64,000 nucleotides of DNA from Alloprevotella rava. Its GTDB lineage: Bacteria > Bacteroidota > Bacteroidia > Bacteroidales > Bacteroidaceae. Below are positions 5,005 through 60,265 of this stretch, one piece after another. The stretch's first letter is position 1; each line of letters opens with the position of its first letter. The DNA lies in the NCBI RefSeq assembly GCF_014195585.1, contig NZ_JACICA010000002.1:310001-374000 (forward strand), read 5' to 3'. Made by a program: the position numbers and the translations under genes. A model generated the notes under the pieces. The model did not search any database. It had not been told where the DNA came from and saw nothing but the letters and a program-made list of their open reading frames with translations.

Positions 5005-5022
5005 GGAATAAGGCTAAATAGG

Positions 5023-5157
5023 AGTCCCCTCCATCTCCCCCATGAGGGGGAGTGCTCAGCTATCACTTGTTTAGGATTCTCCGACAGGTCTGACCAGTCG
5101 GACTAGTCCGAGAACCAAAGCTGAGCACTCCCACTTATAAAGGAGCTGGAGGGGGCT
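5023..5157 (+). repeat. Element with 39-bp terminal inverted repeats, copy 1
   Basis: Left arm 5023-5061 and right arm 5119-5157 are 39-base inverted copies with a few mismatches; each runs from AGYCCCCTCCA to GGGAGTGCTCAGCT. The 57-base core holds decamer repeats. A second element with the same arms lies at 24562-24780. Both lie just 3' of a gene and in the same orientation relative to it, so the RNA hairpin may end transcription. No target-site duplication is obvious and there is no coding capacity. Confidence 0.8.
5081..5110. repeat. GACCAGTCCG-type decamer repeats
   Basis: Three degenerate tandem units of the roughly 10-bp motif (GACAGGTCTG, ACCAGTCGG, ACTAGTCCG) form the core of the inverted-repeat element. 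The same decamer recurs at 12079-12108, 24608-24680 and 32585-32610, always near an ATAAGG array. Confidence 0.75.
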
Positions 5158-5173
5158 TTCATATTCGTGATTT

Positions 5174-5395
5174 TTCGCCCTTTTTGTGAAAATTCGTGGG
5201 CTAAAAACATCAACAGATTTCTTACTTTTTCCCTTTCACGAAGGCCACAAAATCGAGCACGAAAGGGAGAGAGCGCCCCATCCAATCCTCCTGATCATCG
5301 GTTTCCTTATTGCGTCAACGGATACAATAAGGATGTCGGCTGACAGAATAAGGAAGCCAGCCGACACAATAAGGAAACTGACGGGCAGGATAAGG
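5174..5395 (+). repeat. Composite intergenic element, type 1, copy A
   Basis: In order: an arm TTCGCCCTTTTTGTGAA...TTCGTGGGCT (5174-5202), a TTCTTACTTTTTCCC box (5219-5233), a GGGAGAGAGCG segment near 5266, then the phased ATAAGG array (5305-5395). Copies B (43125-43326), C (53203-53445) and D (24545 down to 24344, minus strand) keep this order at nearly the same spacing; A and B align without gaps from the arm to the array. The 170 bases after the array are less conserved. The 116-codon frame across it is not convincing as a gene. Confidence 0.8.
5305..5395 (+). repeat. 21-bp phased ATAAGG array A
   Basis: One CCTTAT at 5305 is followed by four ATAAGG hexamers starting at 5327, 5348, 5369 and 5390, exactly 21 bp apart. 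The 15-bp spacers are similar to each other and approximate the palindrome TGTCAGCTGACA (for example TGTCGGCTGACA). Confidence 0.9.
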
Positions 5396-5707
5396 CCGCA
5401 AACGAGCAGAAAAATGAAAAAAAGTGCAGTTTTTGAGGTGAAAAACTACCAAAACCGGAAAATCTCACCCAAAACTATCCTGCAAAATCCTCCGACAAAG
5501 AAAAATTTTGGCCGCTCCACTCTTTTCTCGCGCTAAAAGGAGAAATGGGTTTGTAAAATAATAAGGCGGTTAAGCAGCATAAAGATAAGAAATCAGAGAA
5601 AGGAGATGTAGATTAGAACAATTTTCTTATTTTACAGGATAACTACGATTATATTTTGGCAAATCTTTATTTATCTGTAATTTTGTGCCACTTTACAAAA
5701 TTTATTT

Positions 5708-11817: not shown

Positions 11818-11992
11818 ATAAGGATAACAGGGATGAAGAATATAGAAACCACCGCAGATAGAATAAAGATATTTGAAAATACAATAAGGCTGTCAGCTGA
11901 CTTCCTTATTGTATCCGCCAACGCAATAAGGAAAATGACGAATAGGCTTATTTTAGAAGAAAACAAGCTTATTGCGTGATGCAATAAGCTTG
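11818..11992. repeat. ATAAGG array F with terminal palindrome
   Basis: Hexamers occur at 11818 (+), 11873 (ATAAAG), 11884 (+), 11904 (CCTTAT), 11926 (+) and 11946 (GCTTAT). The set 11884-11904-11926-11946 keeps the 20/22-bp offsets expected for mixed orientations in a 21-bp register; the first two do not. It ends in a perfect 12-bp-stem palindrome at 11964-11992 (CAAGCTTATTGC, 5-base loop) with another CTTATTG core. It lies between the convergent ends of sufE and the trmH-like gene. Apart from the sufE hairpin, nothing else is recognisable in 11561-12139 except the decamers at 12079. Confidence 0.8.
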
Positions 11993-18485: not shown

Positions 18486-18604
18486 GCCAACGTTTAGACT
18501 TATTGAATCCTATTGTCTAACTCCCCATATTTTTGAATATAAGCACTTGTCTTTGCTGCGCACTTAGTATGTATATCTACTCCTACCAGCAAAAACTTAT
18601 TTTT

Positions 18605-18769
18605 TGTTGTCACGTTGTCACAGAGGTGTAAACGCGTTGATAGATAGCTGTTTATAAGCGTGACAGCAGTGTGACAACAAAATTTTATTGTCACCTTGTT
18701 GTCACGCCTATAATATGTACGTTATCAGATAGTTAAGACTAAAGTGTGACGACGTGACGACGTGACGAT
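18605..18769 (-). repeat. GTGACAAC-box repeats (type 2 composite, copy G)
   Basis: At least seven GTGAC/GTCAC boxes lie here, mostly as TTGTCAC or GTGACAAC, ending in the tandem GTGACGACGTGACGACGTGACG at 18746-18767 (direct 9-bp repeats). Read on the minus strand, it aligns with 48719-48890 box for box. With array G it forms a composite that fills the space between the convergent ends of the LolC/E-type and sbcC genes. Confidence 0.8.
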
Positions 18770-18840
18770 GAAAAAACAAAATGTAGGGAGGAGGGAGAGC
18801 ATGTATAGATATAGTTTTCTTTGTTCTGTGCTCCACTACT

Positions 18841-18929
18841 ATAAGGGTGTTGACTGACGCAATAAGGATGTCAGCTGACAGAATAAGGCTATCAACTGAT
18901 ACGCTTATTGTATCTGCTGATAGCCTTAT
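18841..18929. repeat. 21-bp phased ATAAGG array G
   Basis: ATAAGG starts at 18841, 18862 and 18883, then GCTTAT at 18903 and CCTTAT at 18924. Direct steps are exactly 21 bp; the switch of orientation changes the step to 20. Between 18862 and 18883 lies the perfect palindrome TGTCAGCTGACA. The array ends 16 bases before the sbcC stop codon. Confidence 0.9.
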
Positions 18930-18944
18930 TCTATTTGTAACTAT

Positions 18945-23955: not shown

Positions 23956-24343
23956 TTTCTTCTGTTTATATTGTGATACAAAAGTAGTGATAAGCGCGAA
24001 AATAAAGAACGCCACGCGTGGAATTATTCGTGGCATTCAGTAAGTGGGGAATTAGAAAACGACGGGATTGCACCTACTTCCGAACAACGGCCTTTGCCGC
24101 TCCTGAAAGTATGTACCTGAATGAATAATAGAAAAAGTTACCGATTTATTAACAAAAGATGATTATCAGTATGAAGCTAAAAATGGAGAATCTGCCCCAT
24201 CTGTATCAATTTTCGCCCACTTTTTGGTGGGATAGATTTGAGAAAATGGAGAAGAAAGCTTCAGTTAGTATTGTTTTTCATAGTTTTTCTTTCATTTTCG
24301 GTCGTATTTTTTCAAAAATGCGCCCATACCTCTCCGTCTGTTT

Positions 24344-24545
24344 CCTTATTGTGTCCGCTGGCTTCCTTATTCTGTTGGCGGATTCCCTTATTGTATTGGC
24401 TGACGCAATAAGGATATTTGCGTTCAGGAAGGTGGAGTTGCTCGCTCTCTCCATTTTGTGCGCGGTTTTGTGGCGTTTGTGGGAGGGAAAAAGTGAGAAT
24501 ATTCTTGACTGAATTTAGCCCACGAATTTTCACGAAAGGGGCGAA
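24344..24545 (-). repeat. Composite intergenic element, type 1, copy D (with 21-bp array)
   Basis: Read on the minus strand: arm TTCGCCCCTTTCGTGAA...TTCGTGGGCT (24545-24517), a TTCTCACTTTTTCCC box (24495-24481), a GGAGAGAGCG segment, then the array. CCTTAT hexamers are at 24344, 24365 and 24386 (21 bp apart) and ATAAGG at 24408. The arm-to-array span, 202 bp, equals that of copy B. It lies between the 3' side of envC and the 5' side of sbcD. The remaining bases, 23987-24343, hold only AT-rich sequence and the small hairpin at 24011. Confidence 0.85.
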
Positions 24546-24561
24546 GAAGCACAAATAAGGG

Positions 24562-24780
24562 AGCTTCTTTCAGCTCCTCTATAAGTGGGAGTGCTCAGCT
24601 TGGGTTCTCGGATGGGTCAGACTAGTCGGACCAGTCCGATATTCAGTTCTCCGACCAGTCCGACCAGTCCGACCAGTCGGAGAACCAAATGCGGGAAAGC
24701 GGAAATCCAAGAAATTGTTAGAGAATCCTGCTACAAGTGCTAGCCGAGCACTCCCTCTTATGGGGGAGATGGAGGGGGCT
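24562..24780 (-). repeat. Element with 39-bp terminal inverted repeats, copy 2, with decamer block
   Basis: Arms 24562-24600 and 24742-24780 are 39 bases each and share the layout of copy 1 (5023-5157). The core is longer, about 141 bases, and contains at least six GACCAGTCCG-type units at 24608-24680. It begins 14 bases after the envC stop codon in the direction of transcription and is followed by composite D, the same order as copy 1 and composite A. A terminator role is plausible. Confidence 0.8.
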
Positions 24781-32472: not shown

Positions 32473-32488
32473 TTTGCTTGAGGTTTTA

Positions 32489-32576
32489 GCCCACGAATTT
32501 TTACGAAAGGGGCGAATGTTCACGAATTTCTTTATCATATTCGTGGGTGTTCGCCCTTTTCGTGAATATTCGTGGG
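32489..32576. repeat. Large inverted repeat, arms of the type 1 composite (copy E)
   Basis: Left arm 32489-32516 (GCCCACGAAT...GGGGCGAA) and right arm 32550-32576 (TTCGCCC...ATTCGTGGG) match at about 24 of 27 positions, with a 33-base loop that contains a further CACGAAT...ATTCGTG pair. Transcribed, it would fold into a long hairpin directly after the flippase gene. Confidence 0.8.
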
Positions 32577-32741: not shown

Positions 32742-32810
32742 ATAAGGCTGTCAGCTCACATCCTTATTGTGTCAGCCGACGCAATAAGGAAACTGAAAAA
32801 TACAATAAGG
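32742..32810. repeat. 21-bp phased ATAAGG array E
   Basis: ATAAGG at 32742, CCTTAT at 32762, ATAAGG at 32784 and 32805: steps of 20, 22 and 21. Spacers again approximate TGTCAGCTGACA. It lies 124 bases before the argS promoter. Nothing else is recognisable in 32611-32741 or 32811-32933. Confidence 0.9.
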
Positions 32811-42976: not shown

Positions 42977-43017
42977 GGAAGCACCATTCGTGCTCCCCGA
43001 TAAGGAGGAGAATGGAA

Positions 43018-43154
43018 AGCCCACGAATGTTCACGAAAGGAGCGAATATTCACGAAATTGAATAACTCTTTTCGATGGATTGGACAAGCCAGACCCATTC
43101 GACACCCATTGCTGATTCGTGCTCATTCGCTCCTTTCGTGCTCTTTCGTGGGCT
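43018..43154. repeat. Large inverted repeat, arms of type 1 composite (copy B)
   Basis: Arms 43018-43047 (AGCCCACGAAT...GGAGCGAAT) and 43125-43154 (ATTCGCTCC...TTCGTGGGCT) match at about 26 of 30 positions, loop 77 bases. The central sequence differs from copy E (GGAGCG here, GGGGCG there), and the partner arm changes with it. Confidence 0.8.
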
Positions 43155-43326
43155 AAAATTATCAACAGATTTCTTACTTTTCCCCTCCAGCGAACGCTTC
43201 GAAATTGAATACGGAAGGGAGAGAGCGAACAATCCCATTCTCCTGCGCACGGATTTCCTTATTGCGTCAGCCAGCACAATAAGGTTGTCGGTTGACAGGA
43301 TAAAGAAGCCAGCTGACACAATAAGG
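43125..43326 (+). repeat. Composite intergenic element, type 1, copy B (with 21-bp array)
   Basis: Arm 43125-43154, TTCTTACTTTTCCCC box at 43171-43185, GGGAGAGAGCG segment near 43218, then the array: CCTTAT at 43257, ATAAGG at 43279, degenerate ATAAAG at 43300, ATAAGG at 43321. It aligns without gaps to copy A from CGTGGGCTA to the first ATAAGG. It sits between the helicase gene and the first polysaccharide gene. Confidence 0.85.
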
Positions 43327-43808
43327 AAACTGACAGACGGAGCAGGGGCTGCTGACGACCAAAAATGGCTGTTTTCTTCTGAAAAGAGTAGAAAAAACAG
43401 ACTTTCTCCGATTTTTGGTGGATTTTCTCTCACTGATTTTTTGAGAAAACCACTTTCCCCAACGAAAAAAGCTGTACAAAAATTCTCTTTACTTAAATGC
43501 GTTTGTTAATAAAAGCGTACGTTTTTACTGCGATGGTAATCCTTTTTTCAAGCAGAAAAAGGCTGCTGGAGAATAAGGGAAAACTGCGGAAGAAGCGCCT
43601 TATCCTATCCTGCCGCCCAAGCATAAGCGTAGCTTTTTTCCCTAAATAAGCAGAAAGGTAGAGCCTTTTTTGTATTTTTGTAGGCCTTTTCCAGATTTTG
43701 TGAAAATAAACAAAGGGAGAGATACACTAAAATAGAAAAATATTACGTTCTTTAGGGTAACAGACACTACAGTCTCTGGCAAGCCTTCAGGCCGTCCTGA
43801 CAACCATT
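43327..43808. other. Noncoding leader region of the polysaccharide locus
   Basis: These 482 bases hold the non-conserved tail of composite B and an AT-rich stretch. A TATTTTTG at 43673-43680 could be a -7 box but has no TTTG at the right distance. No UpxY/RfaH-type antiterminator gene, invertible promoter or terminator is seen. Confidence 0.5.
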
Positions 43809-48527: not shown

Positions 48528-48580
48528 TCAACGTTTTTTGAAGAGCGTGCGGCGCAGCATATATATGTCGTTGTAAATAC

Positions 48581-48671
48581 CCTTATTACGTTTGAAAATA
48601 CAATAAGGATGTCAGCTGATAGCCTTATTGCGTCAGCCGACGCGCTTATTGTATTGGAGGTTGCAATAAGG
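48581..48671. repeat. 21-bp phased ATAAGG array H
   Basis: CCTTAT at 48581, ATAAGG at 48603, CCTTAT at 48623, GCTTAT at 48644 and ATAAGG at 48666: steps 22, 20, 21, 22, all in one register. Together with 48719-48890 it forms the second copy of the type 2 composite, at the convergent ends of the two polysaccharide arms. Confidence 0.9.
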
Positions 48672-48718
48672 AAATAGAAAAATAGGTATAAACACGCCTC
48701 TCCCTAAGTTTTGTTTTT

Positions 48719-48890
48719 TTTGTTGTCACGTCGTCACGTTGTCACGATTGGTGGCTAATATCTTGAAATAGATTGTATTACAGGCGTGACAACAACGTGA
48801 CAACAAAAGTCAGAATAAAAGTTGTTGTCACACGCATAAGTGTTTGTTTATCGACCTCTTGTGGACTGTCTGTGACGATGTGACAACAAA
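48719..48890 (+). repeat. GTGACAAC-box repeats (type 2 composite, copy H)
   Basis: Boxes in order: TTGTCAC-GTCGTCAC-GTTGTCAC, then GCGTGACAACAACGTGACAACAAAA, then GTTGTCACACGCATAA, then TGTGACGATGTGACAACAAA. The reverse strand of 18605-18769 shows the same order and near-identical spacers. The boxes face each other, so single-stranded folding or protein binding is possible. Confidence 0.8.
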
Positions 48891-48920
48891 TATCCGAAAT
48901 AGGGGGTGTTGACGAATTGT

Positions 48921-53202: not shown

Positions 53203-53445
53203 TTCGCCTTTTTTGTGAACATTTGTGGACTAAAAACACCTATGATTATCTCAATTATAGTCAATAATATTCTTACTTTTTCGTTCTGAGAATGGCTCAA
53301 AAATCGGCGCGGAAGGGAGCGGATGAATCGTTTCTCCTTCTTGAGCGTCGGTTTCCTTATTGTGTCAGCCAGCGCAATAAGGATGTCGGCTGACAGAATA
53401 AGGAAACCAATGGATACAATAAGGATGCAGACGAGGAGATTAAGG
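53203..53445 (+). repeat. Composite intergenic element, type 1, copy C (with 21-bp array)
   Basis: A degenerate arm TTCGCCTTTTTTGTGAACATT at 53203-53231, a TTCTTACTTTTTCG box at 53270-53283, then the array: CCTTAT at 53355, ATAAGG at 53377, 53398 and 53419, TTAAGG at 53440, all 21 or 22 bp apart. It lies between the divergent wzz and secDF genes, pointing to secDF. The 300 bases to 53750 show no other feature; a 96-codon frame there is not gene-like. Confidence 0.85.
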
Positions 53446-53750
53446 GAGTTTTTGAACGAAAAAGAGAAAAGAAGCGGGCCGTTTGTGTTGTTGAGCGGAG
53501 CGTTAGAGGAATTTTTCGGAAGAATAGGACAAGCTGCTTGCTCGGCAAAAGAAAAAAAATCGGCAGAAAGCGGAGAAGAATGCTTTTTTAGGAGAAAAGC
53601 GAATGTCAAATAATAGGATGGTTTTGTGGGTGTGTTTCTCTCAGTTTGAAAGCTTATTGTAGCAATCGGTGCGTGAGCATCGAGCGATCGGCAGCATGAA
53701 GAAGCGAGAGAGGAGACGGGAGGTGTTGGTGATTTACTGGCTTATGGGCA

Positions 53751-53776
53751 TAAAAAAAGGGATACCACTGTATCCC
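53751..53776 (-). terminator. Rho-independent terminator of the small RNA
   Basis: Stem GGGATAC/GTATCCC with loop AGTG on the minus strand, then TTTTTTT. On the plus strand it would follow an A-tract and so should not terminate. Confidence 0.75.
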
Positions 53777-53814
53777 AACCTTGTTAACCTTAAATCTAAT
53801 ACTATGAAAAACAC
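53752..53814 (-). ncRNA. Small RNA of about 60 nt with own promoter and terminator
   Basis: On the minus strand a full promoter (53848-53819) should start transcription near 53814. The RNA would run through CGTGTTTTTCATAGTATTAG and ATTTAAGGTTAACAAGGTT and end in a perfect 7-bp stem GGGATAC/GTATCCC (53776-53759, 4-base loop) followed by seven or eight T. No useful frame exists on this strand. The 5' part resembles, from memory, a conserved leader of short multicopy sRNAs in Bacteroidales, but I cannot confirm the family. Confidence 0.6.
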
Positions 53815-60221: not shown

Positions 60222-60265
60222 ACTCCCCTTATCGTGTTCATCATTGCGATAAGGGGAGTTTTTTG
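60222..60265 (+). terminator. Rho-independent terminator after uvrA
   Basis: A perfect 13-bp stem ACTCCCCTTATCG/CGATAAGGGGAGT with a 12-base loop is followed by TTTTTTG. Its arms contain CTTAT and ATAAGG but there is no 21-bp array here. The 150 bases up to hppA hold no other recognised feature. Confidence 0.9.

Follow-up and report, generated by a model that had tools for sequence, protein, structure and literature searches.

Intergenic ATAAGG arrays with a step of two helical turns in Alloprevotella rava, and arrays of similar step in related genomes

Arrays of the window and of the genome

In Alloprevotella rava, a LolC/E-like permease gene and an SbcC-like gene converge on a gap that holds an array of the hexamer ATAAGG (here +) and its complement CCTTAT (here -), at positions 18841..18929 of the window, i.e. 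the whole stretch of 64,000 nucleotides that we have analysed (C2:310001-374000 of a draft genome of 2,557,292 bases in 28 contigs). An earlier note, made from the sequence of the window, had described this array as one of eight, with hexamers starting 21 bp apart in the same orientation, 20 bp apart in the order +- and 22 bp apart in the order -+; all eight arrays are present, all eight obey this rule, and the three decayed hexamers that the note had listed, at 43300, 53440 and 18903, are each as it had stated (Table 1). The perfect dyad TGTCAGCTGACA that it had placed at 18868-18879 also exists, but lies one base later, at 18869-18880. The array at 11884 extends in register, in degenerate form, beyond its exact hexamers, and a ninth in-register pair, absent from the note, occurs near the end of the window. 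In total, ATAAGG is found 67 times in the window when both strands are counted, where 23.5 occurrences would be expected, and none of 100 shuffles has reached 67.

Table 1. Positions in the window of the hexamer arrays, of the repeats that carry them and of neighbouring features
Feature	Position	Strand	Description
Array	5305..5395		Orientations -++++
Array	11863..11989 (about)		Exact hexamers at 11884-11931, +-+; degenerate in-register units on either side
Array	18841..18929		Exact hexamers +++-; decayed unit at 18903 (GCTTAT)
Array	24344..24413		Orientations ---+
Array	32742..32810		Orientations +-++; upstream of argS
Array	43257..43326		Orientations -++; decayed unit ATAAAG at 43300
Array	48581..48671		Orientations -+-+; decayed unit at 48644
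Array	53355..53445		Orientations -+++; a further unit at 53440 has decayed to TTAAGG; divergent gap
Two-unit array	60227..60254		CCTTAT followed by ATAAGG, 22 bp
Family A element	18574..18881	+	Contains GTTGTCAC-type inverted ends and an internal hairpin, followed by the array; copies from other parts of the genome are alignable across these positions
Family A element, second window copy with array	48576..48893	-	
Family B element with array	5080..5400	+	
Family B element, inverted copy of 5080..5400	24319..24639	-	79% over 322 bp
Family B elements, related copies	43112-43337 and 53203-53456		
Further dispersed repeat TTTAGCCCACGAATTTTCACGAAAGGGGCGAA	24514-24556, 32485-32527, 43015-43057		Near arrays; inverted partner at 43116-43154
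Palindromic repeat AGTCCCCTCCATCTCCCCC...	5021-5157 and 24560-24780		Adjoins family B elements
BTncRNA_FopS	53749-53814	-	Rfam match, 76 bits; shares its divergent gap with the array at 53355

Across the genome, the pattern ATAAGG-N15-ATAAGG has 218 matches, compared with one for a reversed-pattern control. The register outside the window has been followed in 18 stretches of 20 kb (360 kb), taken every 50 kb along contigs C1-C3, which hold 349 hexamers, against a mean of 145 and a maximum of 165 in 40 shuffles. Among the 201 ATAAGG/CCTTAT pairs lying at most 80 bp apart in these stretches, 183 are spaced by 21n, 21n-1 or 21n+1 bp, depending on their orientation: spacings of 21, 42 and 63 bp separate hexamers of the same orientation (34, 37 and 28 pairs), spacings of 20, 41 and 62 bp occur in the order +- (22, 17 and 7 pairs), and spacings of 22, 43 and 64 bp occur in the order -+ (24, 8 and 6 pairs), while every other spacing up to 80 bp combined accounts for the other 18; in the 40 shuffles, the mean number of pairs at 21, 20 and 22 bp is 0.025, 0 and 0, respectively. 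Tested in this way against shuffled sequence, the 21-bp spacing thus holds well beyond the eight loci of the earlier note.

The common unit consists of AATAAGG, followed by (A/C/G)TGTCAGCTGACA and then by C or G. Each 21 bp contains one dyad, which is TGTCAGCTGACA, a degenerate form of it, or a dyad of another type, for example TATTTTCAAACG, and successive dyads are joined by the 9-bp asymmetric linker CAATAAGGA, which may run in either direction; the spacings of 21, 20 and 22 bp follow from this arrangement by simple geometry. Arrays comprise 2-7 units. In 424 kb, window included, we have counted 40 arrays with at least two exact hexamers in register, and 38 of them are located outside called genes, although 80% of that DNA is called coding (the calls being those of our own simple hexamer model). 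The flanking genes are oriented ++ at 12 arrays, +- at nine, -- at eight and -+ at eight, with one array at the edge of a stretch, which roughly matches how the intergenic bases are distributed among these contexts; gaps of convergent, divergent and tandem type are occupied alike, and on this lack of a clear preference we reject a terminator or promoter role. Neighbouring units are direct in 44 cases (32 ++ and 12 --) and inverted in 57 (25 +- and 32 -+).

The arrays fold strongly and about equally on both strands, with mean folding z values of -4.7 and -4.9 for 38 arrays, compared with -1.2 for 63 neighbouring stretches. In the spacers between direct neighbours, the two halves are complementary at 241 of 448 pairs, against 192 when the halves are shuffled, and none of 2000 shuffles reaches the observed value; when the spacers are divided, those with a GC centre are matched by six of 2000 shuffles and the rest by 200 of 2000. 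Spacer halves between inverted neighbours show no excess of complementarity over the half-shuffled ones, and the -+ spacers are less complementary than shuffled in both subsets. The hexamers may already provide the pairing between inverted neighbours, which would free the spacer from pairing, a reading that we have formed after the fact. Mismatches of the G-T and C-A types within dyads are about equally frequent (53/69, 27/27 and 64/59), so neither strand of the hexamer is favoured; these approximately strand-symmetric mismatch counts, together with the folding, argue against an RNA role on a single strand. No Rfam family reaches its gathering score at the arrays, the only one to do so in the window being BTncRNA_FopS, which comprises paralogous sRNAs of Bacteroidetes (Table 1).

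Host elements and the retention of the step

Many arrays are modules of larger dispersed repeats, of which families A and B are represented in the window. Family B carries the arrays at 5305, 24344, 43257 and 53355, and at the arrays 11884 and 32742 the repeat homology barely exceeds the array itself. Family A has GTTGTCAC-type inverted ends, as observed by eye in the alignment, and no clear target duplication is visible at three close copies. Among 13 aligned sample copies of this family, nine run straight into an array, three reach the array after extra sequence, and one has none. The part between GTTGTCAC and the array (e.g. around 18760-18840 of the window) is poorly conserved in sequence and nearly constant in length, measuring 69-72 bp in seven of eight copies and 79 bp in one.

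In family A, the units mostly owe their order and orientation to inheritance along with the entire element: the orientation is ++-+ in six of the eight compared copies, ++-- in one and +++- in one. Copying of the element, and not local growth alone, accounts therefore for much of the pattern, and the suggestion of the earlier note that arrays grow by duplication and inversion of units at each site is not supported as stated.

The step itself is closely kept. Adjacent hexamers are in register in 101 cases and out of register, at 12-30 bp, in seven; over two steps, the corresponding counts are 12 and three. Substitution is heavy, with 6.1 differences in 15 positions between adjacent spacers (n=15), compared with 7.0 of 15 for random spacer pairs. 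The length of the array has been compared with that of its surroundings in one element family, family A, by automatic alignments: nine of the 13 known copies were tried, one was dropped as its flank anchor was missing, and eight were compared, with an array anchor that demanded a spacing of 21 bp between the first two units, a demand at which none of the nine copies failed. The flank shows 5.9 gap events per pair of copies and a gap/substitution ratio of 0.19, and the stretch between the flank and the array a ratio of 0.35; in the 80-bp array, the hexamers are in register in each of the eight copies with an ungapped mismatch of 0.275 per site, and a free aligner yields a ratio of 0.05. Copy L163, one of the three family A copies that reach the array after extra sequence and lie outside this comparison, shows a gap of 1 bp within one of its array units. 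The comparison of flank and array in family A is the best evidence that length matters. That the step is independent of orientation and survives heavy substitution, as the earlier note had held, is thus upheld, with the array keeping its length better than the flank in the eight copies; the selection for sites on one face of the DNA, which the note had put forward on this basis, may reasonably be inferred.

Related genomes: a common step and different units

This genome has 51 occurrences of three hexamers in register; any occurrence at all is limited to six of the 57 other members of the genus, where the spacers are different, and to nine of 298 genomes of the family, this one included. The relatives are distant, with a best ArgS identity of 79%. 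As a trait common to sister genomes, on which the earlier note had staked its pattern, it is therefore the length of the step and the hairpin-like layout that are found, and not mainly ATAAGG itself.

The sister genomes have been sampled at 58 loci in the neighbourhoods of argS and lolE, which were picked by protein, regardless of arrays. Their non-coding DNA contains 27 near-tandem arrays at lags of 18-26, of which 14 are at 21 and nine at 22, compared with a single array, at lag 20, in shuffled non-coding DNA; lag counts at somewhat different settings agree. Arrays at 21 and 22 number nine and 12 in genome G072, seven and two in G044, and two and one in G042, while G073 has two at 22 and the sample of G004 contains none at either lag. 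The units vary among species and within genomes. In G072, units of the form GTTTG-core-CAAAC recur at 21 bp and units with a TCACGA/TCGTGA core at 22 bp; further unit families are found in G013, G044 and G060, and several unit families coexist in one genome in G072 and G013. The TCACGA/TCGTGA cores of G072 are exactly 22 bp apart in all 32 consecutive pairs found at 15-30 bp, 18 in the same and 14 in opposite orientation, counts to be read with the fact that the TCACGA core differs from its reverse complement at just two bases, which makes a flip indistinguishable from substitution. In the 21-bp family of the same genome, 21 neighbour pairs comprise 13 of the same orientation, three opposite and five undecided. 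The census yields 83 arrays of period 21/22, whose consensus units are only weakly palindromic overall, with 14 at p<=0.05.

Eighteen other genera of the family, sampled in stretches of at most 20 kb, favour the step of 22 bp, with 16 of the 22 arrays at lags 18-26 (shuffled: one at 22 and one at 20); a lag-22 array is found in nine of the 18 genomes, and the 6-mer count at lag 22 is 136, against a mean of 21. In 15 genomes from other families of the order, arrays are no more frequent than in shuffles; the 6-mer count at lag 21 is 59 there, against a mean of 29 (sd 13.5). A lag census has also been made on 80 loci picked among the listed matches to three hexamers in register, many of which are simple 7-mer and coding repeats; with the arrays that contain the search pattern dropped (11, 14 and 30), arrays at 21/22 make up 10 of 20 at Prevotella-like loci, four of 18 in other Bacteroidota (mostly Bacteroidales) and eight of 37 in the rest, where several are of low complexity, all of these counts being selection-biased.

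Two further observations concern array-like sequences in this material. Intergenic-looking tandem arrays with periods of 13, 16 and 18 occur at loci L187, L195 and L198 of sister genomes. Seven Prevotella-type contigs, several of them from the rumen (L036, L044, L045, L050, L067, L101 and L112), contain 21-bp AATAAGG...CTTATT arrays, in which the two orientations of the hexamer alternate, roughly half a step apart.

Origin of the step and known systems

The reading that we favour, to which we assign somewhat less than an even chance, is that these are BIME/MITE-like intergenic hairpin arrays that are held at two helical turns, probably for the geometry of a protein-DNA complex. A DNA-binding protein, either of the nucleoid type or an oligomer encoded by the element, would occupy one dyad after another along a single face of the helix, and for this reason the length of the unit would matter and its orientation would not; orientation would change through foldback inversion (by hairpin or template switch) of the linkers between dyads, and the arrays would spread along with their host elements. 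The coexistence of several unit families in one genome could not be read by one sequence-specific protein, and speaks for a factor that reads length or structure, or for several related proteins. Against the geometric reading stand this coexistence, the weak palindromicity of the units (14/83), the 21-bp demand of the array anchor and the single element family and automatic alignments behind the comparison of flank and array, the array-poor genomes G004 and G073, the mostly same-way 21-bp family of G072, the gap in L163 and the confinement of spacer covariation to direct neighbours, which fits foldback better than protein half-sites. A wider proposal, which we regard as rather doubtful, is that of an intergenic satellite class extending over the family, where the two-turn length and the layout of a dyad plus an invertible linker are conserved and the sequence is free to turn over; it would imply an undescribed protein lattice, or an enzyme, that reads length or structure. 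The similar step and different sequences of related species hint that the length of the step matters and not the sequence. Were the two-turn geometry read by a protein, the arrays would represent a new type of architectural site, spread over the whole chromosome, in a major group of gut bacteria; if the step stems from the making of the repeats, they would be a natural record of a process that copies or cuts DNA by two turns.

The latter is the substance of the main rival, a neutral origin, which we consider unlikely: units would be made and inverted when replication slips or switches template at short inverted repeats, and the step would reflect the geometry of their making and not later selection. 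The species-specific sequences and several unit families with a common step agree with it, as do the strong foldback on both strands, the covariation of spacer halves between direct neighbours alone and the lack of a clear gene-context preference; the units of an array, however, are nearly as divergent from each other as random ones (6.1 against 7.0 of 15) and are hence old, yet few indels have broken the register, while a neutral array would be expected to lose it at the rate of the flank. The folding and the covariation in direct-neighbour spacers would equally suit a function at the RNA level, with transcribed arrays acting as chains of hairpins (at mRNA ends or as protein-binding RNA), but the equal folding of both strands, the mismatches that favour neither hexamer strand, the occurrence in convergent, divergent and tandem gaps alike, the failure of any Rfam family to reach its gathering score on the arrays, and an exact two-turn spacing that such a role does not require make it improbable.

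The ends of Tn7/Mu-like elements carry several two-turn binding sites, and the arrays could be sites of an element-borne transposase or recombinase of this kind, or belong to a REP/RAYT-like system, as their location within dispersed repeats with inverted ends and a layout that stays constant while the sequence changes between species would allow; the results of the searches for machinery and mobile relatives leave this reading quite improbable. At E<=0.001, Y1_Tnp (IS200/IS605-like, RAYT) has no match in our genome, which is 99.94% complete, with the control matching in five of 14 genomes. Among 13 relatives, Y1_Tnp is absent from six, all of which have arrays (G013, G014, G044, G076, G078 and G082, some of them incomplete), is found once in each of five array-bearing ones (G048, G060, G068, G072 and G081), and occurs twice in the array-poor G004 and once in the array-poor G073; its presence does not track the arrays, and REP/RAYT is rejected as required machinery. 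Mu-transpos_C has no match in eight genomes, a result that says little, as the control also matched nowhere. A blastn comparison of window positions 18574-18940 with phages and plasmids has found no relative at the settings used, and viral contigs contain no match to the one exact pattern searched. A last alternative concerns the two-copy 22-bp pairs of other genera. Regulators of the LytTR and AraC types bind direct repeats two turns apart, and these pairs might be their ordinary operators, since many of the matches there have just 2-2.9 units and one pair reads (A)CGTTAGTT; we consider this very improbable, as the pairs show no promoter preference and the multi-unit, genome-dispersed arrays of this genome or of G072 are left unexplained.

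Iteron and operator arrays also present sites every two helical turns, in the service of one replicon or promoter and one protein. The present arrays share with them the recurrence of sites at two turns, and differ in being scattered over the chromosome without a clear preference of context.

BIME/REP sequences, as described in the parts of the two papers compared, are intergenic, often exceed 100 copies, and combine imperfect palindromes in mixed orientation into mosaics, with regular spacing in some species (PMC2817692, PMC3733652); the arrays are likewise intergenic, high-copy, palindromic and of mixed orientation. According to the same parts, REP units measure approximately 21-37 nt, and the inter-REP DNA of Stenotrophomonas is of variable length (PMC2817692, PMC3733652), whereas our units follow an exact 21-bp step and have AATAAGG as their constant part, and no RAYT gene has been found in this genome. 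GTAG does not appear in the unit logo, and CGTC is seen in some of the units, where it is one variant of a dyad arm (TGTC/CGTC) and no constant tag.

In the order Bacteroidales, the BrickBuilt MITE of Porphyromonas gingivalis consists, in the parts of its description compared, of 23-nt direct repeats in up to 22.8 copies at 19 loci, and flips of unit orientation are not described in those parts (PMC4596501). Like the arrays, it is intergenic and contains tandem units of short period nested in a larger element with inverted repeats; unlike it, the arrays have a period of 21 bp, 2-7 units and mixed orientation, and number 40 in 424 kb. As far as those parts go, the period and the mixed orientation, set against 23-nt repeats of one orientation, rule out identity with BrickBuilt. 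Titles and abstract openings in the open-licence literature have yielded no description of these arrays, which is weak evidence of absence.

Dispersed, intergenic, palindromic and of mixed orientation, the arrays appear to behave like BIMEs and MITEs, but no RAYT, a defining feature of REP/RAYT systems, has been found in this genome. Bacterial intergenic repeats are usually defined by their sequence; here, it is the two-turn length that seems to be common to related species.
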